Part shown: positions 9,401-34,290 of the stretch, piece after piece | Numbering within the stretch: position 1 is the stretch's first letter | Layout: each line of letters opens with the position of its first letter | Assembly: GCA_904420025.1 (NCBI GenBank) | Contig: CAJFTW010000143.1 | Span: 1 to 37,101, forward strand | DNA length: 37,101 bases | Source: Candidatus Pseudolachnospira avium | GTDB lineage: Bacteria > Bacillota > Clostridia > Lachnospirales > Lachnospiraceae | Reading direction: 5' to 3' | Notes under the pieces: generated by a model | Database searches by the model: none | What the model saw: the letters and a program-made list of their open reading frames with translations, nothing else | Told to the model about the DNA's origin: nothing | Made by a program: the position numbers and the translations under genes

Positions 9401-9421
9401 CCTGCTGCCTCCTCTTTCTAT

Positions 9422-10396
9422 CTAATTCTGCCTGGTCAGCGTAACGGGAATCACCTCATAGTCGCTGTCACTGGTAACGGGGATTTCCGTTCCTTCTATT
9501 GCCTGCCGCTCCGGGTCATAGGCGGCATGGAAGGGCACACCCGCCTCCTCCGCCAGAAATTCCATCCCGTCTGCGGCAAAAGAGTAGCTGCCGGCGGAAA
9601 TCGTGGTCTCCGCGCCTTCCGGATCCACCAGTGCCAGCGTATAAAGTCCGGATTCCACCGTCAGCTGGTAGGCAATCTCCTCTCCACTTTCCCTTTCTCC
9701 CGTTCCCAGATAAACGCCGTCTTCCCCCTGGCTCTCTGTGGAATTTCGTTCAAACTCCATGGCAGTGGAGGCGCCGCCGGTGGGCGTGTCCCCGGACAGC
9801 CTTCCGTTTCCGTCCTGTGTAAAGGCCAGGGAAAAGGCGCCGGTAAAATCCCCGGTAAAGCGCAAAGCATTTCCGCTGCTCACGTAGGTGCCCTGATCCT
9901 CCATGCCCTCCATGCGGCCTCCGCCTTCCAGGTTCACCGTCATGGGATAACGGTAGTAGGAAAAGGTTCCGTCTTTTGCCAGGGACAGGGTAATCCGCAC
10001 ACTGCATCCCATGGCATCCACATATTTTTCTGCCGTATAGGTGCCGGTATAGTCGCAGACCAGAATATCTGCCGCAGCGCAGATCTCCTCATCCGCCGCA
10101 GCGGCTACCGTTACTTTGGCAGTCCCCTCCCCGGTAATGGTAAGGACGCCCTCTCCGGAGATTTCCGCCACGGAGGGATCGGAAGTGGAGAATACCAGTT
10201 CCGCGTCCTCGCCGCCTTCCAAAATCACATCCTCCGCCAGATTGTAGGTTTCCCCCGCCTCCCGGAACAGATACCCGGCATTGGCCAGGCCCACCGAATC
10301 CGGCGCCTGGGCTCCGCCGCATCCTCCCAGCGCCGCCAGGGCCAGCATGGCCCCGGCCAGCGCCAAAAACCGTTTGATTCCCCTGTTTTGTTTCAT
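9422..10396 (-). CDS. Lipoprotein with Big_2-like segment and a TGTY-type domain
   Basis: ORF trimmed to internal ATG at 10396 (GGGAGC RBS): MKQNRGIKRFLALAGAMLALAALGGCGG; SDPSVAEISGEGVLTITGEGTAKVTV (Ig-like Big_2 pattern); YTGTYTAEKYVDAMGCSVRITLSL. Confidence 0.75.
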   Translation of the reverse strand: MKQNRGIKRFLALAGAMLALAALGGCGGAQAPDSVGLANAGYLFREAGETYNLAEDVILEGGEDAELVFSTSDPSVAEISGEGVLTITGEGTAKVTVAAAADEEICAAADILVCDYTGTYTAEKYVDAMGCSVRITLSLAKDGTFSYYRYPMTVNLEGGGRMEGMEDQGTYVSSGNALRFTGDFTGAFSLAFTQDGNGRLSGDTPTGGASTAMEFERNSTESQGEDGVYLGTGERESGEEIAYQLTVESGLYTLALVDPEGAETTISAGSYSFAADGMEFLAEEAGVPFHAAYDPERQAIEGTEIPVTSDSDYEVIPVTLTRQN

Positions 10397-10445
10397 ATTT
10401 TGCTCCCTTTCCGGACCAGGGTAGCGCACCCCGGTCCTTTGCCTT

Positions 10446-13190
10446 CTAGGCGGCAAACCCGTAAATTCCGTTGCTGCTGTTCGTCCATTCACCGGTATCC
10501 GCATCCCGCAGAATCCCCTGGGGAATCACCACGGTGCAGCTGGTTCCTGCCTCCATTCCCTCCGGCAGTGTAATCACCAGGCAGCTGCCCTGAACGGAAG
10601 CCGTCACGCCTTCCACCGGCTGTTGATCCTGATACACCTGAATCTCTTCCAGAGAGCTGTCCGCCGCCAGTTCTCTGCTGTAGGTGAACTGAAGCCGCGT
10701 GGTTCCCTCCGGAACTGTGTTTTCCTCTCCTTCCCGGTAAGGCACCGCCCGGGGGGCCGGTGTGACAGCGGTCAGTTCCAGACTCTCCTCCGGTTCCTGA
10801 TAGGACAGGGCAACCACCGCCGTACCATCCTCCCGTATTTCCCGAATCTCAATCCGGAGGCCGGTGGGTACCGTGGCATTGCCCAGGGCGTCGTACCCGT
10901 TGGTATTGGGATACGTATCCGGCCCTATGACATCGCCGGCCGTAAAGTAATCCTCCGGGCTGTAGGAGGGCTTGGTTCCGTCTCCGGAGGGGACATAATT
11001 CAGGAACTGGTCTTCCCCGTCTGCCTCCAGGACGCTGATAAATTTGGTGCTGGTATAGGAATTGTCACAGGCGAACCCATAGCCCCTCCAGTTTCCTTCC
11101 ATCCCGTCCTGTGCCACGGAGGCGTCCACATGGAGAATCCGCGCCACCGGCTCCTGCAGCCGCGTATATTCGGCCGCGTTTCCCACCGGGGCCACCGCCT
11201 CCACCACCAGCAGTTCCGTATACAGGCTTTCTGCGTCCTGCAGCTGAATAAAGATGCCGTCCCCCGCCAGCGAGGAAGGACGCAGCTCATAGGTTTCTCC
11301 GTCCAGAGACGTAATATCCTCGTAGGAAATCACCGTGGGTTCCGCCCAGCCCAGCAGCCATTTGCTGAAAATATTGTGATCCCCTATGTTGGCATCCATC
11401 ATATCCATGCCTCCCAGCCCGCCTTCCAGGGCACCGCCGGTATAGGCCGCTCCGTCCCCGCCGCTCCGGGCCGAGGTGTCATAGCTGTAGTAATCGTTCA
11501 GGCCCAGCAGATGGCCGGTCTCATGGATCAGCGAATTGGTATTACACACCAGCGGCGGCACCGATGACCAGACCGTAGTTCCCGGCACAAAAATGTATCC
11601 GGTTATCCGGCAGGGCCATTCCTCCGGGGAATCGCCCCAGGTGGAGCGGTATGCCGCATTCCAGCTCCCCCCTTCCGAGGACAGCGTCCCTGCCCACAGA
11701 ACGTACAGGGAGTCCACCTCCCCATCGCCGTCTCCATCGTATTCCCGCAGATCCAGCCCCTGCTCTATGTAATGGTTCAGGGCCTCCTCCATAATTTCCC
11801 GGTCCGACTGGTACGCGTCCCGGTTCTTTTCCATCCGGTACCAGTCCAGCACGGTACCGTCCAGAATCAGATTTCCGTAGGAGGAACGGTAGTAATAGGC
11901 TGCCAGAGAATTGGAATCCTCCAGGGAGAACAGCGCCTCCTCCACCGCTTCCGCCGTCACATGCCGGGGGCGGTGATAATCCGGGAAATCAATCAGCAGC
12001 ACCAGCGGTTTGGCGGTTCCCAGAGAGGGCATAACCGGGTCCAGTCCCCGGACCTCTGCCGGCAGATTGCCGCCGGAAACCGCTCCCTCCACTGTCTGGG
12101 ACACAAAGGCAATCCCTGCGGAAAGATCAACGTTTTCCTCCGCCTGACGGATAAACTCCAGTTTTGTCCCGGCATTCCAGTAAGAGCCCAATCCGGTTTC
12201 CTCATCCAAATTGCCGGAACGGGGAAGAAGCGGTGTTGTCTCCGGGAAATACAGGGTATCGTTCTCCCTGGTAAACGGAACCTGGAAGCTTTCCCCGGTT
12301 TCCACCTCTCCGGTAATCTTCCGGGGGAAATAGGAAGCGGTTCCCGTTCCGTGATCTTCCTCCAGAATTCCCAGGCATTTGACAAAGCCGTCTACGCCTT
12401 TGATCACAAAAACATTTTCCGGATAAAGGGAAAGGGTGTATGTGCCCATGGCGTGTTCCGCATCATAGGATTCCGCTGGCCGCGCCAGACGGAATTCCCC
12501 GGAAGCCTGGCCGTCCTCTGTATGCATTTCCAGAGAAACGGAAACCTGTTCCAGGTCAAAATCCCCTTCCGGGCAGGAAACCGTTCCGGAAAAGCCCTCT
12601 CCCTCATAGGGCGTAAAAGCAATGGTATGATCCGCATAGATCTCATAGGTTCCCCGGTACAGTGTCTGATTCCAATACAGATAGTACTCAAACCATCTCT
12701 CCAGAATCAGCACCGCGTCTGTATTTTCCATCCGCCCCTGGTAGGTTCCCAGATAAGCCAGATAGACATATTCGGATGTGTCCGTGGCCGGAACCATCTG
12801 CAGCGTCTGCTCCCCGTACTCCACCGTTACCGATGTCTCAGTAAAGGCGCCGCCGCTGTAGGAGCCGCGCAGCTCTCCCTGATTCCCCAGAAAAGTCAGG
12901 GTTCCGTCCGCAGCGGCTTCCAGGCCTCCCCAGGACACTACGCCTGTACCGGCATCCTGATAAAGGAAGTACTGATCCTGTGTAAAGCGGAGAGTATAAA
13001 GAGAAGTTCCCTCTCCGGTTTCCAGCTGATCATAGACAAACGACTGGCCCGCCAGTTCCTGGGGAACCGGCTCCCCGGTTCCGGCGGTCTCCCCCTGCTG
13101 CTGTCCCGCACAGCCGGAGACCGTGACTGCCGCCAGGCACAACGCCAGCGCCAGGCGCCCCCTTTGTATCCATTTTGAAGCTTTTTTCAT
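10446..13190 (-). CDS. M6-family-like metalloprotease lipoprotein
   Basis: Lipobox TVSGCAG; zinc motif HETGHLLGLNDYY (HExxHxxGxxD); VLLIDFPDYHRPRHV... EYDGDGDGEVDSLYVLWAGTLSSEGG; start trimmed to ATG at 13190. Confidence 0.85.
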   Translation of the reverse strand: MKKASKWIQRGRLALALCLAAVTVSGCAGQQQGETAGTGEPVPQELAGQSFVYDQLETGEGTSLYTLRFTQDQYFLYQDAGTGVVSWGGLEAAADGTLTFLGNQGELRGSYSGGAFTETSVTVEYGEQTLQMVPATDTSEYVYLAYLGTYQGRMENTDAVLILERWFEYYLYWNQTLYRGTYEIYADHTIAFTPYEGEGFSGTVSCPEGDFDLEQVSVSLEMHTEDGQASGEFRLARPAESYDAEHAMGTYTLSLYPENVFVIKGVDGFVKCLGILEEDHGTGTASYFPRKITGEVETGESFQVPFTRENDTLYFPETTPLLPRSGNLDEETGLGSYWNAGTKLEFIRQAEENVDLSAGIAFVSQTVEGAVSGGNLPAEVRGLDPVMPSLGTAKPLVLLIDFPDYHRPRHVTAEAVEEALFSLEDSNSLAAYYYRSSYGNLILDGTVLDWYRMEKNRDAYQSDREIMEEALNHYIEQGLDLREYDGDGDGEVDSLYVLWAGTLSSEGGSWNAAYRSTWGDSPEEWPCRITGYIFVPGTTVWSSVPPLVCNTNSLIHETGHLLGLNDYYSYDTSARSGGDGAAYTGGALEGGLGGMDMMDANIGDHNIFSKWLLGWAEPTVISYEDITSLDGETYELRPSSLAGDGIFIQLQDAESLYTELLVVEAVAPVGNAAEYTRLQEPVARILHVDASVAQDGMEGNWRGYGFACDNSYTSTKFISVLEADGEDQFLNYVPSGDGTKPSYSPEDYFTAGDVIGPDTYPNTNGYDALGNATVPTGLRIEIREIREDGTAVVALSYQEPEESLELTAVTPAPRAVPYREGEENTVPEGTTRLQFTYSRELAADSSLEEIQVYQDQQPVEGVTASVQGSCLVITLPEGMEAGTSCTVVIPQGILRDADTGEWTNSSNGIYGFAA

Positions 13191-13247
13191 TTTTTCCCCT
13201 GTCATTTGCTGTCGCCCGCTTCCTGTTATTGGATTTCTGTTGTTTGA

Positions 13248-20062: not shown

Positions 20063-20868
20063 GAAAGATACTACTGGTCCTGAAGGCAGAGGTAGTCAAA
20101 CAGAAGCAGCACGACTATCACTCCTATTTTGTATATTTTTCCCTGTTGCTGTGGCCCATTCTGGGATTTCTGGAGGTGTATTTCACCTACCAGCCCTTTA
20201 CCTTCACCGGCTACCTGGGGATCACGGACAGCCGGGACCTGCTGGCCTTTCTGGGCACCGGCTACATGGCCTACACCTGCTTCTGGTCCATGGTCCAAAA
20301 CGCCTGGTCCATGTCCTGGCAGGAACGGGAAGGCGGCACCCTGGAGGTGGCCTTCCTGACCCCGGCCAACCGGCTGGCCATGATGTACGGCAAAGCCCTG
20401 GGGGCCCTGATCCAGGAGGTCTGGATGTTCTGCTGCTTCTGCCTCTTTGTGCTGTTCTACACAGACACCCTCCGGTGGGACAACCTGTTTCTTCTGCCGG
20501 TGTTCCTGGTGCTGCTCCTGGTTGCCTCCACCTTATGGGGCGGCATGCTCAGCGCCCTCTGTTTATACTCCCGGGATTCCTCCATGATCATGGACATCTT
20601 TGAGACGCCCATGAACCTGTTTACCGGCACCCGCATTCCCGTGTCCTGCTTCCCCACCTGGGCCAAGCTCCTCTCCCTGGTGTTCCCTCTGACCTACTGC
20701 CTGCAGATCATCCGGCTGGTACTGGGAATCGCGGAGCCGGGCCAGCGCCTGCTGCCCAGCCTCCTGGGCCTGCTCCTCTGCATGGGGATTATGGTTGCCG
20801 TCACCGCATGGGTTACGATCCGGGTGGAAAAACATAACCGGGAGACCGGGGAACTGAATTTTTACTGA
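20059..20868 (+). CDS. ABC-2 type transporter permease (second)
   Basis: ORF 19717..20868 trimmed to ATG at 20059 overlapping upstream TGA (ATGA): MRKILLVLKAEVVKQKQHDYHSYFVYFSLLLWPILGF...; REGGTLEVAFLTPANRLAMMYGKALG. Confidence 0.85.
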
Positions 20869-21641
20869 AAGAAGCCGGCGGCCGATTCACCGGTCCGCAA
20901 AAAACGCAGGCTTGCCCGTGCCTGATCCGGACGGCTGTTCTCAATGGTTACCGAAGCGCCGGGGCAATACCGCCGGAGCGCCGGCAATACGCTGTCCCAG
21001 GGGATGCTTCCGTCCCCCAGAGCACTGTGGCTGTCCTGTTTTCCGGTATTGTCATGAAGATGCAGATGGCCAATCCGGCCGCCCAGACCGGCAATCCATT
21101 CCTCCGGCTTCTGGCCGGAAAATACCCACAGATGGCCCAGGTCCAGGCAGGCCGTAAAATAGGGACAGTCCACCCGGTCCAGTATTCCCCGGATCACCTC
21201 CCAGTGCAGATCCATCACATTTTCCAGATGAACCGCCAGAGAGCCGTCCGTCCCGTCCAGAAATTGCTTCCAGAACTCCACCGCCTTTTCCGGCCATCCC
21301 TCCTCGTAACAGGTGGCGGGCTGAAAGCCGGTATGGAAAACAATCCGGTCCGCCCCCAGTTCCGCCGCGGCCCGGTAGGCCTGCCGGAACCGGCACAGGG
21401 TAGCCTCCCGGATCAGCGTGTCAAAGCTGCCGGGGTTCAAATCCAGAAAGGGGCCGTGGACGGAAAAAGGACGCTTCTCCAGCCAGGCTCCCATCCGACG
21501 CCGGTAGGCTTCCACCGCGTCCTGACCCCGGTCCAAGGTATCGCCAATCCCAAAAGCAATGGCCTCAATCCCCCAGTCTGGTTCCTCCTCCAAAAGGGAG
21601 GTCAGTTCTGTATCATCCAGAAGTTGTGAAAAATATCGCAT
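20862..21641 (-). CDS. Sugar phosphate isomerase/epimerase-like TIM-barrel protein (AP endonuclease 2 family fold)
   Basis: FSVHGPFLDLNPGSFD, IVFHTGF, VHLENVMD, FTACLDLGHLWVF, GHLHLHDNTGKQDSHSALGDGSIPWDSVLPAL. Confidence 0.85.
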   Translation of the reverse strand: MRYFSQLLDDTELTSLLEEEPDWGIEAIAFGIGDTLDRGQDAVEAYRRRMGAWLEKRPFSVHGPFLDLNPGSFDTLIREATLCRFRQAYRAAAELGADRIVFHTGFQPATCYEEGWPEKAVEFWKQFLDGTDGSLAVHLENVMDLHWEVIRGILDRVDCPYFTACLDLGHLWVFSGQKPEEWIAGLGGRIGHLHLHDNTGKQDSHSALGDGSIPWDSVLPALRRYCPGASVTIENSRPDQARASLRFLRTGESAAGFFQ

Positions 21642-21676: not shown

Positions 21677-22519
21677 TTACCTGGGATCCGTGTATTCCAC
21701 CGTCATGCCATAATGGTTTGCATACGCCTCCATCTGGCTTCCTCTGGGGCAGCGAATCACACAGCCTTTATTGGTAATCCATTCCCCTATTTCCTCCAGG
21801 TCATGGCGGATCTCCAGGACAGCAAGACGGGTACAGCCGTGGAAAGCCCACTTTCCCACCTTTTTCAGAGTATCCGGCAGATAGACATACTCCAGTTTCC
21901 TGCATTTCCGGTAAGCCCCTTCCCCAATCTCCAGAAGACCTTCCGGCAGATCCAGTTCTTCCAGTCCGCACCCGTAGAACGCCTCCGGGCCAATGTATTT
22001 CAAACGCAGCGGCAGCTCTGCGTCTGTCAGACTCCCGCACTTGTAAAACGCCTGGCGTTCCATGGACTGCAGCGTTTTGGGGAACCGCACCGTTTCCAGG
22101 GCCTCGCATCCGCAAAACGCCAGCTTCGGCAATATCCGCAGGCCGCAGTCCCGGTGGAACCGGACCGCTTCCAGGCGTTTATTATCCAGGAAGGCCCCGG
22201 CTTCTATTTGCTCCAGGCTGGCCGGAAAATCCAGCTCCCTCAGTCGAAAGCAATGGGAAAAGCTATAGCGGCCAATCCGCTTGACCGACCCAAATTGTAC
22301 CGTTCGCAGGTTTCCGCAGTTGGCAAACGCTTCCGGGCCGATTTCCTTTACCCGCTCCAGATCCGCGCCGCGGATCGCGATCTTGTTTTTATACTTTCTG
22401 ATCCGGATCCGAGGCTCCCGCACCATAAGAAAATATTTGTCCGCCTTTTCCGGCACATCTCCCTGCTGCCGCGGCAGCTGCTCCCTGCAGGGCGTCTGCC
22501 CGGATTCAAATCCATTCAT
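21677..22519 (-). CDS. BspA-type leucine-rich repeat (LRR_5) protein, no evident signal peptide
   Basis: Repeats IGPEAFANCGNLRTVQFG / IGRYSFSHCFRLRELDFPASLEQIEAGAFLDNKRLEAVRF / IGPEAFYGCGLEELDLPEGL. Confidence 0.85.
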   Translation of the reverse strand: MNGFESGQTPCREQLPRQQGDVPEKADKYFLMVREPRIRIRKYKNKIAIRGADLERVKEIGPEAFANCGNLRTVQFGSVKRIGRYSFSHCFRLRELDFPASLEQIEAGAFLDNKRLEAVRFHRDCGLRILPKLAFCGCEALETVRFPKTLQSMERQAFYKCGSLTDAELPLRLKYIGPEAFYGCGLEELDLPEGLLEIGEGAYRKCRKLEYVYLPDTLKKVGKWAFHGCTRLAVLEIRHDLEEIGEWITNKGCVIRCPRGSQMEAYANHYGMTVEYTDPR

Positions 22520-22592: not shown

Positions 22593-25331
22593 CTAAGCGG
22601 TAAGGCCATACTTGACTTTGATCCGGTCCAGTTTCTCCAGAATCGGTTCCGCGGCAACATAGAGAAAAATCACCGTAGCCGCGGCGTGAACCAGATCAAA
22701 GGGAATCCCCTGCAGATAGTAAGTCCACAGGATACCCCAGGTAGGGGAAGGCTGAGCCGTCAGCAGCGCAGCCGGATTCATAATTCCCCCATAGATCAGG
22801 AAGGTGGCCAGTCCTCCATACGTACAGAGGGCGGTCCGGCTCCGCAGCAGAAGGCCTTTGCGGAACAAAATGCCCGCCAGAAATCCAATGATGCCAAAGG
22901 CAAACATCTGCCACGGCGTCAGCGGCCCCTGGCCAAAAAACATATTGCTGACAAAACCGGTAACTGCTCCCACCAGAAATCCCGCCTCACCGCCGAAGGC
23001 AACGCCTGTGATAATCACCACGGCCACCACCGGCTTAAACTGCGGCAGCATGAAAAATGCCACCCGCCCCGCTACTCCAATGGCGCACATCACCGCCAGG
23101 ATCACCAGTTCCCTGGCCTGGGGCTTCCTGCCCTCAAAAATCAGCGCAAAGGGCAGCATGGATTCCAGGATAATCAGCAGGGAGATAAAATAATATTTTC
23201 GGTCTCCCAGGAAATAGATTCCCACATAAATGGTCAGGGGAATCGCCAGCAGGATCATCCCTGCCGCTGCTACGGAACGCTTGCTCAGCTTTCGGCGGTC
23301 AGGTTCTATCTGCACCCTCCATTCCGGTTTCCCCCGACCCCAGGACAGTGTAACCGCCGCCAGCAGGATTTCCCCGGCAAAGGCCAGCATAAGCCCCACA
23401 TATTTCCATACGGCGGATGGACTGGCGGCGGCAGCAATGGCCTCGGAACCACCGGAGAGGAAAGCAGAAAATCCCTCCCAGTTCCGCACTGACAGAAACA
23501 ATGTTGCGGTAAAAGCGGCGCCTGTCATCATCAATAGGGCCACCCGCAGCGGCGTAAGTTTTTTTACCGCAGGTTTCGGCCGAACCTCCTCCGGCTTTCC
23601 GTTATCCAGCCGGTATTCTCCGCTGTTTTCCGGCAGTTCCGGTATTGTTTCCGGCGTTCCTCCCAGAGCCGTAATCACATCGTTGACTGTCGCCGCTTCC
23701 GGAATCCGGCAGCGGGCCATGCGGTTGGCCGCCGTGGTGTAGAAACTGTTTCCGCTGAAGAAAGCCCGGGGTCTGTTTTCCGCCACAATGTCCCCGTCAA
23801 AAAACAGGGCGCAGCGGTCCGCGTAATCGGCGCAAAACTCCAGATCGTGGGATACCATCACCACTGCCACCCCCGCGGCGGTCAGTTTCTTCAGGATGGC
23901 GGCAAAAGTTCTTTTAAATTCCGCGTCCAGGCCTTTGGTAGGTTCGTCCAGCAAGAGGATCCGAGGCTGGAGCAGCAGTACCTTGGCCAGAGCTGCCCGC
24001 TGCTGTTCCCCGCCGGAAAGATCATACGGGTGGGATTCCAGCAGCGCTCCCAGCTGGCATAGGGAAACCATATCCTGAAGCCTCTTTTGTTTTTCCTGCC
24101 GGCTGATTTTGGATTCTGTGAGAATCTCCAGAAGGTCTTCCCGCACCGTCCGGCCCACAAACAGATTCTGCGGATTTTGCGGTAACACACCCAACAGCCG
24201 GTTAAACAGCTTGCCGGAGGGGATTTTAGAAAGCTCTGTACCTTCTATTTTCACCTTCCCCCGGTAGGGAAGATACAAACCCGCCATCAGGGAAAGGGTA
24301 GTGGTCTTTCCCGTGCCGTTGCCGCCCAGGATGGCCGTGAGCTCCCCGGGATACGCCCGGAAGGACAGGCCTTTTACCACATCCGGAGCGTCCTTTTCAT
24401 ATTTAAACCAGACCTCTTTCAATTCCACCGCCGGCTCCTTTGCCGTTGCCTCCGACGGTTCCTCCGGAAGGGAGGCTTTTATTTCCATCTGGGAAAGCCA
24501 TTCCCTCCCGTCCCGCACCGTAACCGGACAGGGAAGCCGGTTCTCCACCCCCGCCCAGATCCGCATGGGAACCGGCATGGCGGAAAACATCCCATGTCCC
24601 CGGGCGCGCAAACTCTCCCCTACTGCCTCCGGGGCGCCATCACACAGAACCGCTCCCCGCTCCATTACAACCACACGGCTGGCCAAAGGGAAAGCCTCCT
24701 CCAAACGGTGCTCCGTGAGAAGAACGGTCACCCCCAATTCCCGGTTGATTTTCCCTACCGTTGCCAGAAAATCCGCCGCCGCAATGGGGTCCAGCTGGCT
24801 GGTAGGCTCATCCAGAATCAGCAGGGACGGCTGGAGCGCCATCACAGAGGCCAGGGCCAGCAGCTGCTTCTGGCCGCCGGAAAGTTCGGTCACATTTTTA
24901 TGAAACCATGCCTGTATGCCAAAAAAACTGGCCATCTCCGCCACGCGCAGGCGGATGGACGGCGTGTCAAAGCCCAGGCTTTCCAGCCCAAAGGCCAGCT
25001 CATGCCATACTTTATCCGTGACAATCTGATTTTCCGGGTTTTGCATGACAAACCCGATTTTGGACGCCGCGTCCCGCCGGCTCAGTTCCCCCAACGGGGT
25101 CCCCTCAAAAAGGATCCGGCCGGACAGTCTTCCATGGGGAGATAAAGCGGGCTTCAGCTGCCGCAGCAGCGTTGTTTTTCCGCATCCAGAAAGACCGCAC
25201 AGGACAAGAAATTCTCCGGCTTTTACGGTAAGCGAAAGTTCCCGCAGCGCCGGCTGTTCCCGTTCCGGATAGGTAAAGGTCAGGTCTTGTACCGCAAGGA
25301 CTGCGTCTGTCTCTTTTGCAGTTTTTTCCAT
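22593..25331 (-). CDS. ECF transporter, fused EcfA-EcfA-S component; S domain predicted cobalamin/corrinoid-specific from context
   Basis: Two ABC cassettes (GLSGCGKTTLL / TELSGGQKQLLALASVM; GGNGTGKTTTL / YDLSGGEQQRAALAKVL) followed by a hydrophobic S-like domain (MFFGQGPLTPWQMFAFGIIGFLAG); next to EcfT. Confidence 0.88.
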   Translation of the reverse strand: MEKTAKETDAVLAVQDLTFTYPEREQPALRELSLTVKAGEFLVLCGLSGCGKTTLLRQLKPALSPHGRLSGRILFEGTPLGELSRRDAASKIGFVMQNPENQIVTDKVWHELAFGLESLGFDTPSIRLRVAEMASFFGIQAWFHKNVTELSGGQKQLLALASVMALQPSLLILDEPTSQLDPIAAADFLATVGKINRELGVTVLLTEHRLEEAFPLASRVVVMERGAVLCDGAPEAVGESLRARGHGMFSAMPVPMRIWAGVENRLPCPVTVRDGREWLSQMEIKASLPEEPSEATAKEPAVELKEVWFKYEKDAPDVVKGLSFRAYPGELTAILGGNGTGKTTTLSLMAGLYLPYRGKVKIEGTELSKIPSGKLFNRLLGVLPQNPQNLFVGRTVREDLLEILTESKISRQEKQKRLQDMVSLCQLGALLESHPYDLSGGEQQRAALAKVLLLQPRILLLDEPTKGLDAEFKRTFAAILKKLTAAGVAVVMVSHDLEFCADYADRCALFFDGDIVAENRPRAFFSGNSFYTTAANRMARCRIPEAATVNDVITALGGTPETIPELPENSGEYRLDNGKPEEVRPKPAVKKLTPLRVALLMMTGAAFTATLFLSVRNWEGFSAFLSGGSEAIAAAASPSAVWKYVGLMLAFAGEILLAAVTLSWGRGKPEWRVQIEPDRRKLSKRSVAAAGMILLAIPLTIYVGIYFLGDRKYYFISLLIILESMLPFALIFEGRKPQARELVILAVMCAIGVAGRVAFFMLPQFKPVVAVVIITGVAFGGEAGFLVGAVTGFVSNMFFGQGPLTPWQMFAFGIIGFLAGILFRKGLLLRSRTALCTYGGLATFLIYGGIMNPAALLTAQPSPTWGILWTYYLQGIPFDLVHAAATVIFLYVAAEPILEKLDRIKVKYGLTA

Positions 25332-26197
25332 TGCAGAGCCTCCTTTCTGTTAAACACCACCGGCAGGGCACACAGCGCCAGGAACAGCCCAAAGGCCCCC
25401 ATCTGCCAAAGGCCAAAAGGCGCCCCGTATAAGATAGGCATGTACACAAACCTCAGTTGGCCGGTTAAGGCGGCGGCCAGAACCCCGCCGCCGCAGAAAA
25501 GCAGGAATAGCAATACAGCTCGGTCTCTCCGATCAAAGCGGTAAAGGGAAAAAGCAGTCCGCCCCGGCAGGCCAAATCCCCGGTCTTTCATGCTGTCCGC
25601 CGTCTCAATGGCATTTTCCAGCGCCCAAGTCACCAGAATGGACAGGATCTTTATGCCATGCCTGGCCCGCCGGATCAGCCCGCCGCTCCGGACATCCCGG
25701 CCGATACATCTCTGCGCGTTGGAAATCACCCGAACCTGGGCGGCAAAGCGGGGCACAAACCGCAGAGACATGGAAAGAACCAGAGAAAGCGCGGGAATGA
25801 TCCTCCCAAACAGATAGACAAATTTATCGCTGGTCATAACCGCGTTAAAGCAGGAAAACCAAGCGATCACGGTGATCAGCAGCACCGCCGCGTAAATGCC
25901 GTAGAGGATGGATTCCAGCGTAAGCGGGTTTCCGCTGGGCAGGTAGGCCAGAATCGTCACCCCCTGGTGAGAAAAGGCTGGATTGACCAGCGCGGTGATC
26001 AGCAGCAGCGGAAGCATGTACAAAATGTTAAACCGCGCCGCCTTCTTCCCCTTCAGGGAAAGGACATAGGCCAGCGCGCAGGCCAGGGAAATTCCCAGGC
26101 AGACCGGGTGGTTGAAGAACATGGTAAAACCAATCACCAGAACAAAATACAGCATGGTAACGGCCGGATGGCAGCTGGAAAAAGGATCTCTTTTCAT
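25280..26197 (-). CDS. ECF transporter transmembrane component EcfT
   Basis: Multi-TM protein with coupling-helix-like region (MSLRFVPRFAAQVRVISNAQRCIG...RARHGIKILSILVTWALENAIETADSMKDRGFG); overlaps downstream ABC gene by 52 nt. Confidence 0.85.
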   Translation of the reverse strand: MKRDPFSSCHPAVTMLYFVLVIGFTMFFNHPVCLGISLACALAYVLSLKGKKAARFNILYMLPLLLITALVNPAFSHQGVTILAYLPSGNPLTLESILYGIYAAVLLITVIAWFSCFNAVMTSDKFVYLFGRIIPALSLVLSMSLRFVPRFAAQVRVISNAQRCIGRDVRSGGLIRRARHGIKILSILVTWALENAIETADSMKDRGFGLPGRTAFSLYRFDRRDRAVLLFLLFCGGGVLAAALTGQLRFVYMPILYGAPFGLWQMGAFGLFLALCALPVVFNRKEALQWKKLQKRQTQSLRYKT

Positions 26198-26206
26198 CTC
26201 GCGGCC

Positions 26207-27172
26207 TTACCCTCCTGCCGCGTAGCCGCCGCCCACATCATAGCCCAGGTCGCAGGTATAAACCCATTCGATCACGTCTCCCGGCTGAAGCTGATACCGG
26301 CTGCACCCATAGTTGGGAAACCATCCGTTTACTTTATACATCCAGCCGGACAGATCCCCGCAGTCAAATTCATACAGGTTATGGATTCCTTCGATATAGG
26401 CGGAATTATACATAGGGGTAAATTCAAATTCCATGTGGATCCGCCTTTCCCGTGTCACTCGCTGGAGAACGTCAAAAACACTTTCTCCCTCATGAAAGGT
26501 AACGGTGGTAGCCGCCAGGATCACGCCGTCGGCCGGCACCATAGGTTTCTTTTCCTCTGCCAGCATATCCATATTATTTAAAATGGTATCACACCGTATG
26601 GAAAGAGTGCAGGTATACTGGGTCTCCTCATCCACAAAGGTCTCCTCCGGCTCCACCGGCTGGGGTTTTCCTTCCGGCACCGGATCGGTCAGATACGGAT
26701 CCTTCCCAGCTTCCGCAGTGGTTTCCGGCTCCGTCTCTATTTCCGGACTGGTCTCCGGCACACTTGCCGAACCGCCCACCGTGCCAGGTGCGGAAGAAGT
26801 CGGCTGCGGTCCGGGGGCCGGTTTAGAAGCAGGCTGGGAAGTTCCCCCTGCCGTTGCGGCCTCCGCCTGGCGTGTCTCCGCCGGATCGGTCTCCTTTCCC
26901 TGGCTCTCCGCCAGAGCAGCACTGCTTGTATCTGTTTCCGCCTGTACGGTGTTTTTCTCTTCCTGGCTTTCTTTTTCCCGGGTTGCTTCTGCCTGGCTTT
27001 CTTTCTCCAGCAGCACCTGTTCTGAGGAAGCCGCGGCTGTTCCCGCCACTGCGCTTCGGTTGGGGGTTGGCTGAAGCAGGAACGCCGCCGCCAACACCGC
27101 TATAACACACACCGCCGCCACCCCGATTTTTCCGTATTTGCTTTTGAAAAATTTTTGAATGACTTCTTTCAT
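26207..27172 (-). CDS. Membrane-anchored DUF4430 (transcobalamin-like beta-domain) protein
   Basis: N-terminal TM anchor, long S/T/E/P linker, C-terminal VFDVLQRVTRERRIHMEFEFTPMYNSAYIEGIHNLYEFDCGDLSGWMYKVNGWFPNYGCSRYQLQPGDVIEWVYTCDLGYDVGG. Confidence 0.85.
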   Translation of the reverse strand: MKEVIQKFFKSKYGKIGVAAVCVIAVLAAAFLLQPTPNRSAVAGTAAASSEQVLLEKESQAEATREKESQEEKNTVQAETDTSSAALAESQGKETDPAETRQAEAATAGGTSQPASKPAPGPQPTSSAPGTVGGSASVPETSPEIETEPETTAEAGKDPYLTDPVPEGKPQPVEPEETFVDEETQYTCTLSIRCDTILNNMDMLAEEKKPMVPADGVILAATTVTFHEGESVFDVLQRVTRERRIHMEFEFTPMYNSAYIEGIHNLYEFDCGDLSGWMYKVNGWFPNYGCSRYQLQPGDVIEWVYTCDLGYDVGGGYAAGG

Positions 27173-27209
27173 CTCCTGCCACCTCAAAATTTCTGAGACA
27201 CCTGAAAGC

Positions 27210-27280: not shown

Positions 27281-30200
27281 TTACCGCCGGTTCTTTTTTC
27301 TGCTCACGGCGGACAGCAGGGATACCGCTGCCAGGGCACCCAGGAACACCACTACATACATCCCGGTCAGGCTGTTGTCGCCGGTCTTGACCGTTCCGGC
27401 GCCGTCTGCCCCAGCATTCTGGGTCCCAGGCGCCGCTGTATCGTTGAGATTTCCGGTGCCAACGCCGGCATTGTTCCCGGTGTTAGCCCCCGGCTGGTTC
27501 CCGGTGTTATCTTCCGTGTTGTTTCCGGGCTGGTTTCCGGTGTTGTCTTCCGTGTTGTCCCCCGGCTGGTTTCCGGTGTCATCGCCCGGATTGGCCTGGC
27601 CATCGTCCGGGTTGGCCTCCGCCGGCTGGAACACCGCGAACGCGCCGATCTGGCTGGTCTCAAACACCAGTTTCCCATCTGCCAACGTGGCCGGGATTTC
27701 AGCCATGCTGCCGTCCTCGTTCATGAGGTACACTCGGCTTCTTGTTCCTTCGTATCCCTCCGGAAGCGGAATGGACACCGTAATCGGGCCATCCGGCTGT
27801 ACTTCCAGATTATTTTCCAGCAGATACATGTCGTACAGGGCAAATTTCCCCTCCGGCAAGGCAGCAGCCGCCTGGTCGTATCGATTCCCGGAGGAAAGAA
27901 TGGTAACCTCCAGGACCAGGCCGTCCAGAACGCCTTCTTTGCCGGTGACGGTAACGCTGCCTCCGTTGACATCCGGCAGCGTTACATTGCCTTCCTCCGG
28001 CTCCTCCGGTTCCGGCGTATCCGGTTCTGTCCGGATGGTCACATCGCTCATATCATACAGGGTGTTCTTCTGCTCCAGCAGTCGTTCATACGCCACCAAT
28101 GCATAGGTTCCCTGCTCCGTGGCCATCTGGTTGTATCCGCCGTCCGCCGTATGCTGGAAGCCTCCCTCCTCTGCCGTAAAGGAAAGCAGCGCGGTAACCG
28201 GATTTCCTCCCTCCTTGACAAAACGGGGATCCTCCGCCGGGTTGATGCCCAGGGAAGACAGCGCCACAATCACCTGCGCCGTGCTTTCCGCGTTCACCGT
28301 TCCCCAGCTGGCAAAACCGCCGTCTGTCCGCTGCAGCTTAGACAGGCACTCCACCGCCTTGTCCGCCGCGGCTTTGACTTCACTGTCGGTTCCACAGTAA
28401 GGGGCCAGCGCCTGCAGTGCCATAGCCGTCATATCCGGATCCGCTGTTGTTCCGCTCAGCGCCCAGCCGCCGTCTTCCAGCTGCCGGCCCAGTATGTTCG
28501 CAATCAGCTTCTCCCGGGTCACCGGGACCGCGGCGTCACTGTCCGGTATCGCGTAATCATGGGAATCCAGTGCAATCAGCGCCCAGATCGGCCCATTGAT
28601 CCCCTGGCGGGTCACATACCCCATATCCGTCAGGTTCGCGAGCAGATTGTATCCGGCCACATCCGTCACATCATAGCCCAGCGCTGTCAGCGCCAGGATC
28701 ACGCGGGAGTATTCCGTGGATTTGTTTCTGCTGTCCGGCAAAACCCCTTCATTGCTTTCCAGCGCCTCCACGACCTTCTCATAATAATGGGCGTAATAGT
28801 CCTCCGGCACTTCATAGCCCGCCCGGGCCAGCGCCAGCACCGCCCATTCGCCGCCAATGCTGGTTACCTCCGGTTCCGGCACTTTGTCCAGCAGTACGGA
28901 CAGGTAGCGGTCGGTATCCGGCGCGGGGGCCGGCTCTTCCGGTTCTGTAAGCTGCAGATAGCAGATATACGGTTCCTTTTCTCCTTCCTGCACGATCACA
29001 CGGATCAGGCCTTTCTCCGGAATAGAGGAATAAATCCTCTCTTCTCCATTTTCACTGTTGATGTAGATATTGGCATCCTCCGGAGCGTTCACCCGGACCG
29101 TCAGCGCTTCCCCTTCTTCCTGGCCCTCTGCCAGCGAAACCCGGACAACCCCGCCGTTTTCCGGCAAGGCCACTTCCTGGCCGTTGACTACAAGGGATTC
29201 CGGCGCCTGGGTCTGGCCCACCGGCGCTTCCGCCGGGTTCGTTACCCGGTTCACCGCCGTAATCTCGGTAGACTTCTCCCCAATCGCCCCGGCGTAAATA
29301 CTGGAAGCGGTGGCAATCCGGATATAAGAGACGCTGTCCAGCTCCACCGGCATGCCGTTTTCATCCACCGCCCAGCTCAGGTCAAAGGCATCTCCGCCCG
29401 TCGCCACGGTGTCCGGATGATTGTAGGGGTTGGTGGCAACGCTGTTGATGGTTCCGTTGGTATTGACATCCGCATAGCCAAAGTCCGTAAAGACAGCCGC
29501 CGCGCTTCCATAATTATCCTCGGCATTGCTGTTCAGCCGGGGGCCTGTTACGGTCATAGACTGCTCCCGCTCCTCCGTCCAGTCAAAGTACGGGTAGGAG
29601 GCTGCCTGGGGATAGTTATAATTTTCTCCGCTCTCCCCATCCGAGTTGGTCCAGGCCGACTTGCCGTCCCGGTTGGTGTACGTCATGGAATAATCCCAAT
29701 CGTTGTAATCCTCATAGTGGTCAGACCCCGCCAGGGTATACCAGGTTTCTCCGTCCTGGGAGACCTGCACATAGCCCGGCTCATGGGCGCCGGTGCCAAA
29801 GGCGTTCCCGTACACAATAAAATCCGCTCCATAGGGGTTCTTCGGATCATTTTCAATGGGCTTCTCATACTGATAAATGATATAGCCTCCAAAATTTCCC
29901 ACAGAAAGCACCCCGCCGCCGTCCTTCAGCGTGCGCTCCGGCATGGTCCCGTAGTTGGACGCATTGGTATACTGAGAACCGATGCACAGATACTCCACCA
30001 CACGGTCCGGATAAACATCCTTTTCTCCCCGCGGATAAACGGTAAAAGCATACTGGCTGGTGCCGGTGTTGCCCTCCCCGTCCTCCACCTGGAGAATGAT
30101 GTTGGTGGTGGAACGCGCATTGCTTCCTGTACCGGTTATGGGAAGGATGGGCGTGGTGTAAAGAGGATTCCCCTCTTCATCCGCACCGGAAGGCTCCAGC

Positions 30201-33200
30201 AAGTTGGCGTCGGTGACAGATGTCTTATACACCTGGATCCCCTCCGGAACCGTAAAGGTCAGATCCGCCTCCGTCTCCCCGCTGGGGATCAGCGCCGATA
30301 AGGTGTAACGGTCGCTCTGAAAGCCCGGCGCGTAAAACGTTCCGCCTTCCACTTCTGCCGAAAGAATTTTGGCGTCTATGCCCAGCGGCTCCACGCTTTC
30401 CACATAAATCCGGAACTCCTTTTCCGGATTGGCAAAAGGATCCTCCGCGCCTGCCGCCACCTGTTCCGCATGATATTTCTCCGAGTTGACCCGAAGAGTG
30501 ATCACGGCTCCCTTTTCGCCAACCTTAATGGGAGAGCTCTTCCAGTTGGTCACCGCCTCTTCCAGCGGTTCCCCATCCACATAAATCATCGCCCGCTGGC
30601 TTGCCGAACCAAAACGAGGGGAAAGGGAGAGGGTGGTGGTCCGGCTTCCATAAATATACGTTTTATAGGCGGTTACCGAGTTCGACCACCCGGTGAGGGG
30701 CTTTCCGGTTGACCCGGTGGCCAGCTCCTCGGTCTCCTCGTCATAGCGGAACAGCGTTCCCTCCTTGTATCCCAGGTAGGTGGGATAGGCCAGCGCCGTC
30801 TCCCCATTGGGGTAAAGGGTCATGCCGGAAACGGTGCAGGTGGGATTATAAGGGCGGAAAATCCGGAAAGTATAGGTGGTAACATTGTCCTCCTGCCCGG
30901 TGGGATACACCTCAATAGTCACCACATTCTCGCCGGAAGCCAGTACGTTGGCAATATTGACTGCCGCACCGTCCGTCAGCTCCACCTCCTGCTCCGCCCC
31001 TTCACTGGTGCGGTAGCGCAAAACCGCCGTCAGGGATTCCCCGTCAAAATACGGCGTGAACGCCAGTGTCGCATAGGTATAACGGTTTTCCTCTATCTCC
31101 CAGTCATACTCCAGCTGGGCGGCGTTGAAGCCAGCCTTGGCGCTGGCATGGCCAAAATAGCTGTACTGGGTCAGGGCCAGGTCATCCAAATAGGCCTTTC
31201 CTTCCTCTTTTACCTGCAAATACAGAGAGGCCCGAACCGGTTTCTCCGCCGTAGACCGGGAAGAGACTGCCGTCAGATAGGTCTGCCCCGGTTTGCGGAC
31301 CGTCACAAGGCCCTGGGCGTCCACCGTGGCCACCGTCTCATCTGCGCTGGACCAGGTGAAGGTTTCCCCTTCCTCTGCCCCCAGCACCTGCAGCTGTACC
31401 TGCTTTCCTTCCTCAAAAATTACGCTGTCTTCCCCAGGCTGCCCCGCAATCTGAAGGCTTCTCCCGGTAACGGTAACCGGAAACGTGCACTGGATGGAAG
31501 GATCGTACTTGAAGGTAGCGGTAACCTTGGTCGTCCCCAGGGCCAGCGGCGTAATGCTCAGGCCATAGGTTCCCTTGGTGGCAATGCTGCAGATAGACGG
31601 ATCCTCAATCTCATAGGTAAATTCCGTTGCGTACCAGCCCGTAAAAGCATTGGTGATCTCCGCTGGCTTCTGAAGATCCGCATGCTCCGCCAGTTCTGCG
31701 GTCACATCCGCCACTTCCGGCATGGCGGGCAGGATATTAATGGAGACCGAACCCAAGTATACGGTACTGTCCGAGTAGGCAGTGCTGGTCACATAGACCG
31801 TAACATTCTGCCGGGAATCCACATCTCCTGCCGTAAAGGTGCCGTCCCCATTGGCCGTGAGGGCGGAGGGATTGCGGGACTCCCATCCGGTCTCCACCTC
31901 CGCGTCCACATCCAGGGCGAAATCCAGAGAGAAGGTATCATCCTCTGCCGTCCCCTTTATGTAATACAGGGTATTGCCGGACGCAATCAGCGGTTCTCCC
32001 TCCCCAGGCGTAACCGTGGCGCTGGTTCCAATGCACCGGGCCGTGAACACCTCCGACTGGGCATTTCCATCGCTTGCGGTAATTTTATATTCACAGACCG
32101 CCGGCTTTGTGGAAAACAGAATATAATATCGTCCGCTGAAACTGTTGTAGCTAAGATCCACCGGCTCTCCGTCCAGGGTTGCGGAATAGGTCAGTTCATC
32201 TCCGTCCGGATCCTCAAAAATTTCATCCATATAGATATAAACGTAGGTGCCGCCGTACAGATAGGTTTTTCCTTTTTCCTCTGCATACTCTGTTTGGATC
32301 TGCGGGGCTCTGTTGCCGGAAGCCTCGCTCACACGCAGAGAGACGGTGTGGCTGGCCTCCGCCGTACCATCGCTGGCGGTGATTACCACCGTATAGGTGC
32401 CCGCCTGGGGAATCGTGCCGGCATATACGCTGCCATCCAGCGTCTGTTCCAGATCCAGTTCCGCAATTTTCACCGTGTAAGCCAGCGGGTCTCCGTCCGC
32501 GTCGGAAAAGAATTGGCTCAGGTCTACCGAAAATTCTTCCCCTGCCGCCGCCTCCAGCGTATCCGGCGCGTTATCCGCCACCACCGGCCCCTGGTTCTTC
32601 ACCTCCGGCTGCAGCTGGATAGTGACAGAATCCGTATAGACCGTCACCTGGTTGTTGTTCTGGGGATCCATATATTCCAGCTTGGTGGAGATGACAATCT
32701 GGCTGGTGGAGGTGACCGGTATTTCCTGATTAGGGCGATACCTCTCCTCCTTCCCATCCACCCGGACCGTTACCTGGGAGGAATAATTTTCCAGCTCCAC
32801 CTCAAAGGCAATGGAAGAAAGCTCCTCCGGCACCACGCAGGTGTAGCTTCCCTCCTCTTCTCCGGGGACCAGCGCAAGGCTTTCATCCGTCAGCTTCACT
32901 GCTTTGATTTCCGCGCTTTTGCTGTTAAAATCTCCGCCAATGTCCGCTCCCAGCTGGCAGGTATAGACCCAGCGGATGGTATCTCCGTCTTCCACCTGAA
33001 AAGCGGAACAGCCCTGGTTCATATACCAGTCATTCAGACGCACCATCCAGCCAGACTGGGGGCCTGCATCGAATTCTCCAAAATATTCATAGTGCGTTCC
33101 ATTCAGCTCAAAATCTTCCAGCCCAGCCAAATAGAATCCGTCCTCTATCGTGCCTGTGTAATCGCACCCAATGTTCAGAGCATTCAGCAGGCGGACGGTG

Positions 33201-33481
33201 ACCTCCGCCATGTTCTCCCCTTCCTCAAAGGGCACTTGCGTGGCCGGGATGATTTCTCCCAGCGGATTTTGATATAGCTCCTCAATGTAGTCATCCTCCG
33301 GGCGCACGCCATAGTCCTCAAAGGAAATGGTCACATAACCGGCCGGTTTTGCCACATCAAACGTAAGACCATCTGTGTCTATACCCGTCCGTTCGGCGCC
33401 TTCCACCGTTTGGGCCGGCGGCGGCGCCATTCCCAGCACCATCAGGACAGCCAGGAACAGACTTAGAATCCTCTTTTTCAC
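27281..33481 (-). CDS. Giant (2066 aa) sortase-anchored surface protein: DUF4430 + Ig/cadherin-like modules + a putative B12-associated surface-protein module + alpha/alpha-barrel (prenyltransferase/transcobalamin-like) domain
   Basis: Signal peptide; SGWMVRLNDWYMNQGCSAFQVEDGDTIRWVYTCQLGADIGG; QLEDGGWALSGTTADPDMTAMALQALAPY / LQRTDGGFASWGTVNAESTAQVIVALSSLGINP repeats; C-terminal TVKTGDNS + TM + KKNRR. Confidence 0.92.
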   Translation of the reverse strand: MKKRILSLFLAVLMVLGMAPPPAQTVEGAERTGIDTDGLTFDVAKPAGYVTISFEDYGVRPEDDYIEELYQNPLGEIIPATQVPFEEGENMAEVTVRLLNALNIGCDYTGTIEDGFYLAGLEDFELNGTHYEYFGEFDAGPQSGWMVRLNDWYMNQGCSAFQVEDGDTIRWVYTCQLGADIGGDFNSKSAEIKAVKLTDESLALVPGEEEGSYTCVVPEELSSIAFEVELENYSSQVTVRVDGKEERYRPNQEIPVTSTSQIVISTKLEYMDPQNNNQVTVYTDSVTIQLQPEVKNQGPVVADNAPDTLEAAAGEEFSVDLSQFFSDADGDPLAYTVKIAELDLEQTLDGSVYAGTIPQAGTYTVVITASDGTAEASHTVSLRVSEASGNRAPQIQTEYAEEKGKTYLYGGTYVYIYMDEIFEDPDGDELTYSATLDGEPVDLSYNSFSGRYYILFSTKPAVCEYKITASDGNAQSEVFTARCIGTSATVTPGEGEPLIASGNTLYYIKGTAEDDTFSLDFALDVDAEVETGWESRNPSALTANGDGTFTAGDVDSRQNVTVYVTSTAYSDSTVYLGSVSINILPAMPEVADVTAELAEHADLQKPAEITNAFTGWYATEFTYEIEDPSICSIATKGTYGLSITPLALGTTKVTATFKYDPSIQCTFPVTVTGRSLQIAGQPGEDSVIFEEGKQVQLQVLGAEEGETFTWSSADETVATVDAQGLVTVRKPGQTYLTAVSSRSTAEKPVRASLYLQVKEEGKAYLDDLALTQYSYFGHASAKAGFNAAQLEYDWEIEENRYTYATLAFTPYFDGESLTAVLRYRTSEGAEQEVELTDGAAVNIANVLASGENVVTIEVYPTGQEDNVTTYTFRIFRPYNPTCTVSGMTLYPNGETALAYPTYLGYKEGTLFRYDEETEELATGSTGKPLTGWSNSVTAYKTYIYGSRTTTLSLSPRFGSASQRAMIYVDGEPLEEAVTNWKSSPIKVGEKGAVITLRVNSEKYHAEQVAAGAEDPFANPEKEFRIYVESVEPLGIDAKILSAEVEGGTFYAPGFQSDRYTLSALIPSGETEADLTFTVPEGIQVYKTSVTDANLLEPSGADEEGNPLYTTPILPITGTGSNARSTTNIILQVEDGEGNTGTSQYAFTVYPRGEKDVYPDRVVEYLCIGSQYTNASNYGTMPERTLKDGGGVLSVGNFGGYIIYQYEKPIENDPKNPYGADFIVYGNAFGTGAHEPGYVQVSQDGETWYTLAGSDHYEDYNDWDYSMTYTNRDGKSAWTNSDGESGENYNYPQAASYPYFDWTEEREQSMTVTGPRLNSNAEDNYGSAAAVFTDFGYADVNTNGTINSVATNPYNHPDTVATGGDAFDLSWAVDENGMPVELDSVSYIRIATASSIYAGAIGEKSTEITAVNRVTNPAEAPVGQTQAPESLVVNGQEVALPENGGVVRVSLAEGQEEGEALTVRVNAPEDANIYINSENGEERIYSSIPEKGLIRVIVQEGEKEPYICYLQLTEPEEPAPAPDTDRYLSVLLDKVPEPEVTSIGGEWAVLALARAGYEVPEDYYAHYYEKVVEALESNEGVLPDSRNKSTEYSRVILALTALGYDVTDVAGYNLLANLTDMGYVTRQGINGPIWALIALDSHDYAIPDSDAAVPVTREKLIANILGRQLEDGGWALSGTTADPDMTAMALQALAPYCGTDSEVKAAADKAVECLSKLQRTDGGFASWGTVNAESTAQVIVALSSLGINPAEDPRFVKEGGNPVTALLSFTAEEGGFQHTADGGYNQMATEQGTYALVAYERLLEQKNTLYDMSDVTIRTEPDTPEPEEPEEGNVTLPDVNGGSVTVTGKEGVLDGLVLEVTILSSGNRYDQAAAALPEGKFALYDMYLLENNLEVQPDGPITVSIPLPEGYEGTRSRVYLMNEDGSMAEIPATLADGKLVFETSQIGAFAVFQPAEANPDDGQANPGDDTGNQPGDNTEDNTGNQPGNNTEDNTGNQPGANTGNNAGVGTGNLNDTAAPGTQNAGADGAGTVKTGDNSLTGMYVVVFLGALAAVSLLSAVSRKKNRR

Positions 33482-33603: not shown

Positions 33604-33635
33604 TCAAAAAGCCGGACCCCTGTCTGGAGTCCGGC
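33604..33635 (-). terminator. Intrinsic terminator, likely expression platform of the cobalamin riboswitch
   Basis: On minus strand GCCGGACTCC-AGACA-GGGGTCCGGC followed by TTTTTGA. Confidence 0.85.
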
Positions 33636-33892: not shown

Positions 33893-33970
33893 CTATTCTG
33901 TTATCCAATCTTCCCTAACGGAAAAGCCTCCGCTGCCCGCGGCTTTCCCGCCATCCCCCATTCCTGGGAA

Positions 33971-34001
33971 CAAAAAAACTCTCTACGAATCCGTAGAGAG
34001 T
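33971..34001 (-). terminator. Strong intrinsic terminator ending the upstream structured RNA
   Basis: Minus strand ACTCTCTACGGATTCGTAGAGAGT followed by TTTTTT. Confidence 0.9.
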
Positions 34002-34290
34002 GGTCATTCCGCTGCTGTGCGCTTTTGCTCCCACGGATCTGACGAATTTCACGCCATATTCCATGAGACAGTAGGCATTTCGGGCTTTACCGAACGTCAG
34101 GACGCATCTCCTGCCTGGCTCCGGAGTTTCACCGGATCTCCTCTTAGCGCTGTACACAGTACGCGGCTGTTTCATGTTTCACTGATATTTCCAACTGGCT
34201 GCTATCCTTACAGACATTTTCGTTTTCCCCAGCATCACCTCTTTAAAAATGACCTATCGGAAAACGAAAATGTGTCTTTTCTGAAAATTC
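33971..34290 (-). ncRNA. Unidentified structured RNA (~320 nt) with own promoter and terminator; family uncertain
   Basis: Promoter plus terminator bracket a region dense in hairpins: UCCGGUGAAACUCCGGA, AGGAGAUGCGUCCU, UUCGGUAAAGCCCGAA nested in AGGC...GCCU, GUACUGUGUAC; 15-bp perfect inverted repeat 34214..34228/34259..34273; no convincing ORF. Confidence 0.6.

Follow-up and report, generated by a model that had tools for sequence, protein, structure and literature searches.

What does a giant surface protein do when its gene lies behind a cobalamin riboswitch, and through which of its domains does it act? We addressed this question for a predicted surface protein of the gut-type bacterium Candidatus Pseudolachnospira avium (Lachnospiraceae), encoded in a stretch of 37,101 nucleotides (assembly GCA_904420025.1, contig CAJFTW010000143.1, positions 1 to 37,101 of the forward strand). 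This whole stretch is called the window below, and coordinates refer to it. The protein consists of a DUF4430 domain, Ig-like (Big_2) domains, a BtuH-type domain, an alpha/alpha toroid and a sorting signal, in that order. We consider it highly probable that it serves a corrinoid uptake operon as the component for capture at the surface. Released by the riboswitch and anchored to the wall, it would capture corrinoids with its BtuH domain and also with the toroid, on which a DUF4430 domain would act as a lid, and relay them to import by an energy-coupling factor (ECF) transporter. Surface corrinoid capture as such is very likely, and capture and uptake of corrinoids are well supported by the genomic context.

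A preliminary description of the locus had already proposed surface corrinoid capture by a pair of domains resembling animal intrinsic factor. The idea is right, with a corrinoid-uptake context throughout and matching folds, but it is mainly known, having been published in 2007 (PMC1796856). What is new is that a single polypeptide combines two unrelated folds of B12-binding type, together with the link to the transporter component CbrT and the riboswitch statistics.

A BtuH-type domain in the giant protein

We identified a domain at residues ~1170-1415 that was absent from the preliminary description. Residues 1188-1411 match chain B of 8BLW (E 8e-16), and a profile built from 13 bacterial homologues finds the same chain, 8blw_B, at E 1.4e-41 and the BtuH2 structure 7biz_A at E 3.7e-33. 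The entry 8BLW is the BtuB1G1 complex, in which the match falls on the BtuG1 H domain (PMC10404256). For this domain type, B12 binding has been demonstrated experimentally in Bacteroides (PMC8941943, PMC10404256), and BtuH2 binds B12 at very high affinity (PMC8941943). Asn399 of BtuH2, which contacts phosphate, aligns with an Asn that is invariant in 13 of 13 bacterial homologues, and Phe401 is mostly kept; the contact residue Gln333 falls outside the alignment. The BtuH domain is the strongest evidence for corrinoid capture. The preliminary description had likened the protein to BtuG, with the animal-type fold pair as its building blocks. The animal-type folds are there, but the analogy was incomplete, as a true domain of the BtuH/BtuG1-H type is also present. 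One relative of 2853 aa (L056:10449-19007:+) carries DUF4430, BtuH, PQQ-type beta-propeller repeats and a toroid in a single chain, and its propeller recalls BtuG.

Two domains of the intrinsic factor type

The DUF4430 domain near the N-terminus and the alpha/alpha-barrel repeats near the C-terminus were both borne out. PF14478 matches residues 136-174 above the Pfam cut-off (29.8 versus 23.8 bits, E 8e-7), and a DUF4430 profile made from bacteria only has human transcobalamin-2 (TCN2) as its best PDB sequence match (E 0.0044). An AlphaFold model based on 71 homologues shows the C-terminal repeats as a 12-helix alpha/alpha toroid (pLDDT 97.2, pTM 0.94). The alpha6/alpha6 toroid fold is common to intrinsic factor and transcobalamin, prenyltransferases and cyclases.

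Fifteen relatives have a toroid followed by DUF4430 in one chain, several of them with a linker of ~20-35 residues. One such fusion, L102, was modelled (438 residues, pLDDT 92.8, pTM 0.72). For this model, PDB ranks 1-15 are taken up entirely by structures of transcobalamin, intrinsic factor and haptocorrin (E 8e-13 to 1.6e-10 over ~450 alignment columns), and the next match is a squalene-hopene cyclase at 1e-5. The DUF4430 part of L102, which stands in for the giant protein's copy in this comparison, matches the isolated transcobalamin beta domain (5no0, TMt 0.72; 3u7z, TMt 0.74). Together the models and the beta profile indicate that both domains are of the intrinsic factor/transcobalamin fold type, as the preliminary description had claimed.

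Genomic context

The cobalamin riboswitch described earlier upstream of the giant gene scores above the cut-off of RF00174 and has its own terminator (Table 1); the two together are likely an OFF switch. Downstream of the giant gene follow genes for a membrane-anchored DUF4430 protein, an EcfT-like component, a fused EcfA-EcfA'-S protein, an LRR_5 protein and a CbiR-like protein. Successive distances are 93 bp, 9 bp, an overlap, 73 bp and 35 bp. Because these same-strand genes are separated by such small gaps or overlap, the giant gene through the CbiR-like gene are likely one operon. The membrane DUF4430 gene, the ECF transporter genes and the CbiR-like gene had no place in the preliminary description. 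For the S part of the fused protein, the sole convincing PDB relative is 6FNP, which is CbrT, an ECF component of L. delbrueckii and a shown cobalamin/cobinamide transporter (PMC5997447).

In the family to which the organism belongs, 152 of 299 genomes encode DUF4430. The set of toroid protein, DUF4430 protein, EcfT, EcfAA' and S component recurs around 40 DUF4430 matches and 80 further loci, and operons of this type are found across Clostridia and Paenibacillus. At the 80 loci, which were selected on the DUF4430 domain alone and include several contigs that end too early to show both flanks, a toroid protein lies upstream in 66, EcfT downstream in 69 and both in 57. Cobalamin riboswitches are closely associated with the domain: of 71 in 37 genomes, 29 precede a same-strand DUF4430 match by no more than 12 kb where 0.23 are expected, and these come from 25 genomes. 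The count measures association and not prevalence, given an incomplete list of matches and a choice of genomes that favoured strong DUF4430 matches. In a phylogenetically diverse set of 14 loci (Paenibacillus, Pelotomaculum, Sedimentibacter, Flavonifractor and others), 12 also have the riboswitch.

The three corrinoid-type modules occur in varied arrangements among relatives and yet stay together, since BtuH and DUF4430 share a chain in 11 of 13 BtuH proteins and the order DUF4430-BtuH-toroid is found in three genomes. Directly upstream of EcfT stands a DUF4430 protein alone in 67 loci and a toroid-DUF4430 fusion in four. These natural fusions link both halves functionally. The four proteins (L052, L065, L066 and L071; 560-630 aa) are natural minimal intrinsic-factor-like proteins.

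The mechanism that we propose begins with low intracellular cobalamin, at which the riboswitch would let transcription read past its terminator. The giant protein would be secreted and then anchored to the wall, where extracellular corrinoids would be bound by its BtuH domain and by the toroid, the latter closed by a DUF4430 domain in the manner of intrinsic factor. The membrane-anchored DUF4430 protein would take over the corrinoid and pass it on to the CbrT-like S component, and EcfT with the EcfAA' ATPase would import it. A CbiR-like enzyme may remodel the imported corrinoid. Computation establishes the identities and folds of the domains, the gene order, the riboswitch and the conservation of the operon; we infer corrinoid binding, the order of hand-over and the lid from the domains and the context described above.

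Alternative explanations and conflicting evidence

Several observations weigh against corrinoid capture by this system. In Foldseek searches with the toroid alone, transcobalamin, the farnesyltransferase beta subunit and terpene cyclases match about equally well. A sequence profile of the toroid retrieves squalene cyclases and alpha-2-macroglobulin from the PDB, not intrinsic factor; therefore, sequence alone leaves the toroid unplaced. Of the families to which the preliminary description had pointed, PF01122 (Cobalamin_bind) has no match in the giant protein and weak ones in 2 of 71 homologues (best E 0.012), whereas prenyltransferase/squalene-cyclase toroid models do match, at residues ~1650-1780, but below the Pfam cut-off. 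The toroid also matches NCBIfam SCO2321_fam with 47 bits (cut-off 300), which suggests that related toroids may exist in Streptomyces.

With cyclase and prenyltransferase models as its best sequence matches, the toroid might have enzymatic activity of the prenyltransferase or squalene-cyclase type. However, the variants seen have a hydrophobic residue where the DXDD cyclase motif has its last Asp, and the toroid is a single domain in an extracellular context and a corrinoid operon. We consider an enzyme very improbable, and a terpene-cyclase role was rejected because the intact DXDD motif is missing. The large Ig-like, wall-anchored architecture would also suit an adhesin with the toroid in the role of a thioester (TED) domain, next to the riboswitch merely by coincidence, and 13 of 71 members show weak TED_complement matches. 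However, the MATEQ motif is without Cys, so that there is no thioester and this role too was rejected. In addition, the link to the riboswitch and the ECF genes is far above chance, and the adhesin explanation retains almost no weight.

In the BtuH domain, the residues His476, Tyr510, Trp511 and Trp577 of BtuH2, which contact the corrin, are not conserved in the alignment. Thus, to judge from the alignment, the ligand may sit in a different position or be somewhat different. A further explanation is that BtuH alone binds the corrinoid, and that the toroid and DUF4430 are scaffold or protein-contact modules. BtuH is the sole domain whose close relatives of known structure are experimentally B12-bound. 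Moreover, when the first positions of the six inner toroid helices were tested for conservation, as the sign of a ligand mouth, the result was not significant, 48 of 294 circular shifts doing equally well. However, most operons have a toroid and DUF4430 without BtuH and still retain the riboswitch and the CbrT-like transporter, and we regard binding by BtuH alone as unlikely.

The arrangement of the two intrinsic-factor-type domains is a separate matter. The L102 model superposes on transcobalamin with a global root-mean-square deviation of ~23 Å: each domain matches and the arrangement does not, so that the arrangement differs or is not fixed. Both halves do occur in one polypeptide, as had been noted, but they are ~1350 residues apart in the order beta...alpha, so that they may or may not pair within the chain. 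The toroid may instead form the intrinsic-factor-like sandwich in trans with the membrane DUF4430 protein (26207-27187), leaving the protein's own N-terminal DUF4430 another role. In favour of such pairing are the distance between the halves, the 73 of 116 toroid proteins without their own DUF4430, the separate DUF4430 protein that adjoins in most loci, and the four fusions directly upstream of EcfT. In contrast, DUF4430 and toroid share one chain in 43 of 116, and the DUF4430-BtuH-toroid order recurs in the three genomes mentioned; this same-chain recurrence suggests use within the chain. We are evenly divided on pairing in trans, which is a variant of corrinoid capture and compatible with it.

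The remaining conflicting points concern the operon and the genome. The EcfT-like protein's CbiQ match (19.9 bits) is below the cut-off, as is the match of the CbiR-like protein to NF041277 (63.3 versus 105 bits), although CbiR is still its best match. The genome also has CbiC, CbiD, CbiK and BtuF/FecCD-type genes, the last pair under a different cobalamin riboswitch. The organism may therefore make corrinoids and own a second importer.

Gene, surface signals and neighbouring elements

Features of the locus are given in Table 1. The open reading frame of the giant protein begins with GTG, with a good ribosome-binding site (AAAGGAGA) just upstream. At its C-terminus, GTVKTGD is followed by a hydrophobic stretch and RKKNRR, a layout compatible with a sorting signal. 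Two sortases are encoded in the genome, and a relative with the identical DUF4430-BtuH-toroid order (L037) ends in the canonical LPKTGD. The VKTGD sorting signal of the preliminary description fits these observations, but the motif is a variant and no Pfam or NCBIfam anchor model matched the tail. Secretion and wall linkage are thus predicted features of the protein. Among relatives, surface attachment differs and involves SLH domains, sortase-type tails or a C-terminal transmembrane segment.

Table 1. Coordinates of the riboswitch, the giant protein and its domains, and the operon genes in the window
Feature	Position	Strand	Basis
Second leader element with own terminator (34001-33978)	33970..34250	(-)	One other genome also has it
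Cobalamin riboswitch RF00174	33675..33897	(-)	44.2 bits vs cut-off 31.5, E 4.4e-8
Intrinsic terminator between aptamer and open reading frame	33611..33635	(-)	10 pairs, 8 G-C, TTTTTG tail
Giant surface protein, 2066 aa	27281..33481	(-)	Order DUF4430 - Ig-like/Big_2 - BtuH - alpha/alpha toroid - sorting signal
Predicted signal peptide (MKKRILSLFLAVLMVLGMAPPPAQT...)	33392..33481	(-)	Reading of sequence
DUF4430/transcobalamin beta-type domain of giant protein	32921..33301	(-)	Pfam 29.8 bits; own hidden Markov model
Big_2 Ig-like domain, best copy, residues 686-743	31253..31426	(-)	Pfam, 45 bits
BtuH-type corrinoid-binding domain (predicted binding)	29240..29974	(-)	8blw_B E 8e-16; 13-homologue profile
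Alpha6/alpha6 toroid (intrinsic-factor alpha-type)	28022..28906	(-)	AlphaFold pLDDT 97.2; transcobalamin TMq up to 0.64
Variant sortase signal VKTGD + hydrophobic stretch + basic tail	27284..27391	(-)	Sequence; sortases in genome
Membrane-anchored DUF4430 protein, N-terminal transmembrane segment, exact start codon uncertain	26207..27187	(-)	Pfam 62.9 bits (cut-off 23.8)
EcfT-like transmembrane component	25280..26197	(-)	Weak CbiQ match, 19.9 bits; homologues next to DUF4430 genes, 69/80 loci
Fused EcfA-EcfA'-S protein, S part CbrT-like	22593..25331	(-)	ECF ATPase 353 bits; S part vs 6fnp_A E 1.3e-11
LRR_5 (BspA-type) protein between transporter and CbiR-like gene	21677..22519	(-)	Pfam
CbiR-like xylose-isomerase-fold protein (cobamide remodelling?)	20862..21641	(-)	Best NCBIfam match CbiR

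A second structured leader with a strong terminator lies upstream of the cobalamin riboswitch. Its motifs GGTGAAA...CC and AGCCAGG recall those of cobalamin aptamers, but the element matches no Rfam family at E 1 or better. A single further genome carries the element among 200 genomes searched as DNA and 397 searched as a pattern. There (L159; G169:C134, about 733-870) it is 81% identical over 130 nt and likewise precedes a cobalamin riboswitch and a toroid/DUF4430 giant. Cobalamin riboswitches were located with Rfam models, since a regular-expression search overlooked almost every true one. Elsewhere in the genome of the giant protein, two other cobalamin riboswitches precede CbiK with BtuF/FecCD-type genes (G000:C42:7881-8079, L154) and CbiD with a corrin methylase (G000:C135:921-1093, L155). 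The strongest of the genome, with 119.9 bits, lies close to a contig end (G000:C57:25690-25865, L153), and no gene under its control can be seen on that contig. The window also holds, at 8306-13205(-), a run of proteins that read as secreted and lipoprotein-like, including a putative M6-type peptidase (10446-13205, sub-threshold match).

Comparison with known systems

Bacterial transcobalamin-like domains have been discussed before. Burroughs et al., who defined the SLBB superfamily in 2007, described such domains fused to toroids in secreted or wall-anchored proteins, and operons with a CbiO-like ATPase, a CbiQ-like gene and a second SLBB paralogue (PMC1796856). They proposed B12 scavenging and lateral transfer to animals (PMC1796856). 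Three Firmicutes homologues of BtuH, one near an ECF transporter gene, were reported by Putnam et al. in 2022 (PMC8941943). In the literature searched, which excluded most subscription journals, we found no experimental work on bacterial DUF4430 plus toroid proteins, and no account of a three-module protein with BtuH, of the CbrT assignment or of the riboswitch statistics.

The wider proposal is that Clostridia and Paenibacilli run an extracellular corrinoid relay, feeding a CbrT-type ECF transporter, with present-day relatives of intrinsic factor, which in this protein share one wall-anchored chain with a second, unrelated fold of B12-binding type, BtuH; we give it even chances. If it is true, ECF transporters have surface substrate-capture proteins, with wall-anchored binding proteins placed before the importer, and the B12 carriers of animals derive from a bacterial system of this kind. 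It would also give the Pfam family DUF4430 a predicted function, and it makes the 2007 proposal of a bacterial origin of intrinsic factor directly testable.

The giant protein and its operon share with the proteins of 2007 the DUF4430-type beta-grasp and toroid in either order, predicted wall anchoring or secretion, CbiO/CbiQ-like genes, an SLBB paralogue and a predicted role in B12 scavenging. The BtuH domain, the cobalamin riboswitch and the CbrT-type S component lie outside the 2007 account, as far as its accessible text goes (PMC1796856). The hosts described then usually lacked key B12 biosynthesis enzymes (PMC1796856), in contrast to the genome studied here with its CbiC, CbiD and CbiK.

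Animal intrinsic factor, transcobalamin and haptocorrin likewise combine an alpha6/alpha6 toroid with a DUF4430 beta domain, and the bacterial toroid-beta relatives match them over both domains. However, the animal proteins are short chains with the toroid before the beta domain, whereas the giant protein has the order beta...BtuH...alpha with a long spacer, a predicted wall anchor, a toroid without a PF01122 match and an ECF transporter to feed.

Bacteroides BtuH2 and the BtuG1 H domain share with the giant protein a homologous BtuH domain beside Ig-like or PKD domains in a riboswitch-controlled uptake locus (PMC8941943, PMC10404256). There uptake proceeds through BtuB/BtuFCD, whereas the protein described here is Gram-positive, predicted to be wall-anchored, joined to intrinsic-factor-type domains and served by an ECF transporter instead. 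The S component is homologous to CbrT of ECF-CbrT (PMC5997447). However, ECF-CbrT uses a shared ECF module, while this operon has a dedicated EcfT, a fused A-A'-S protein and predicted extracellular binding proteins.

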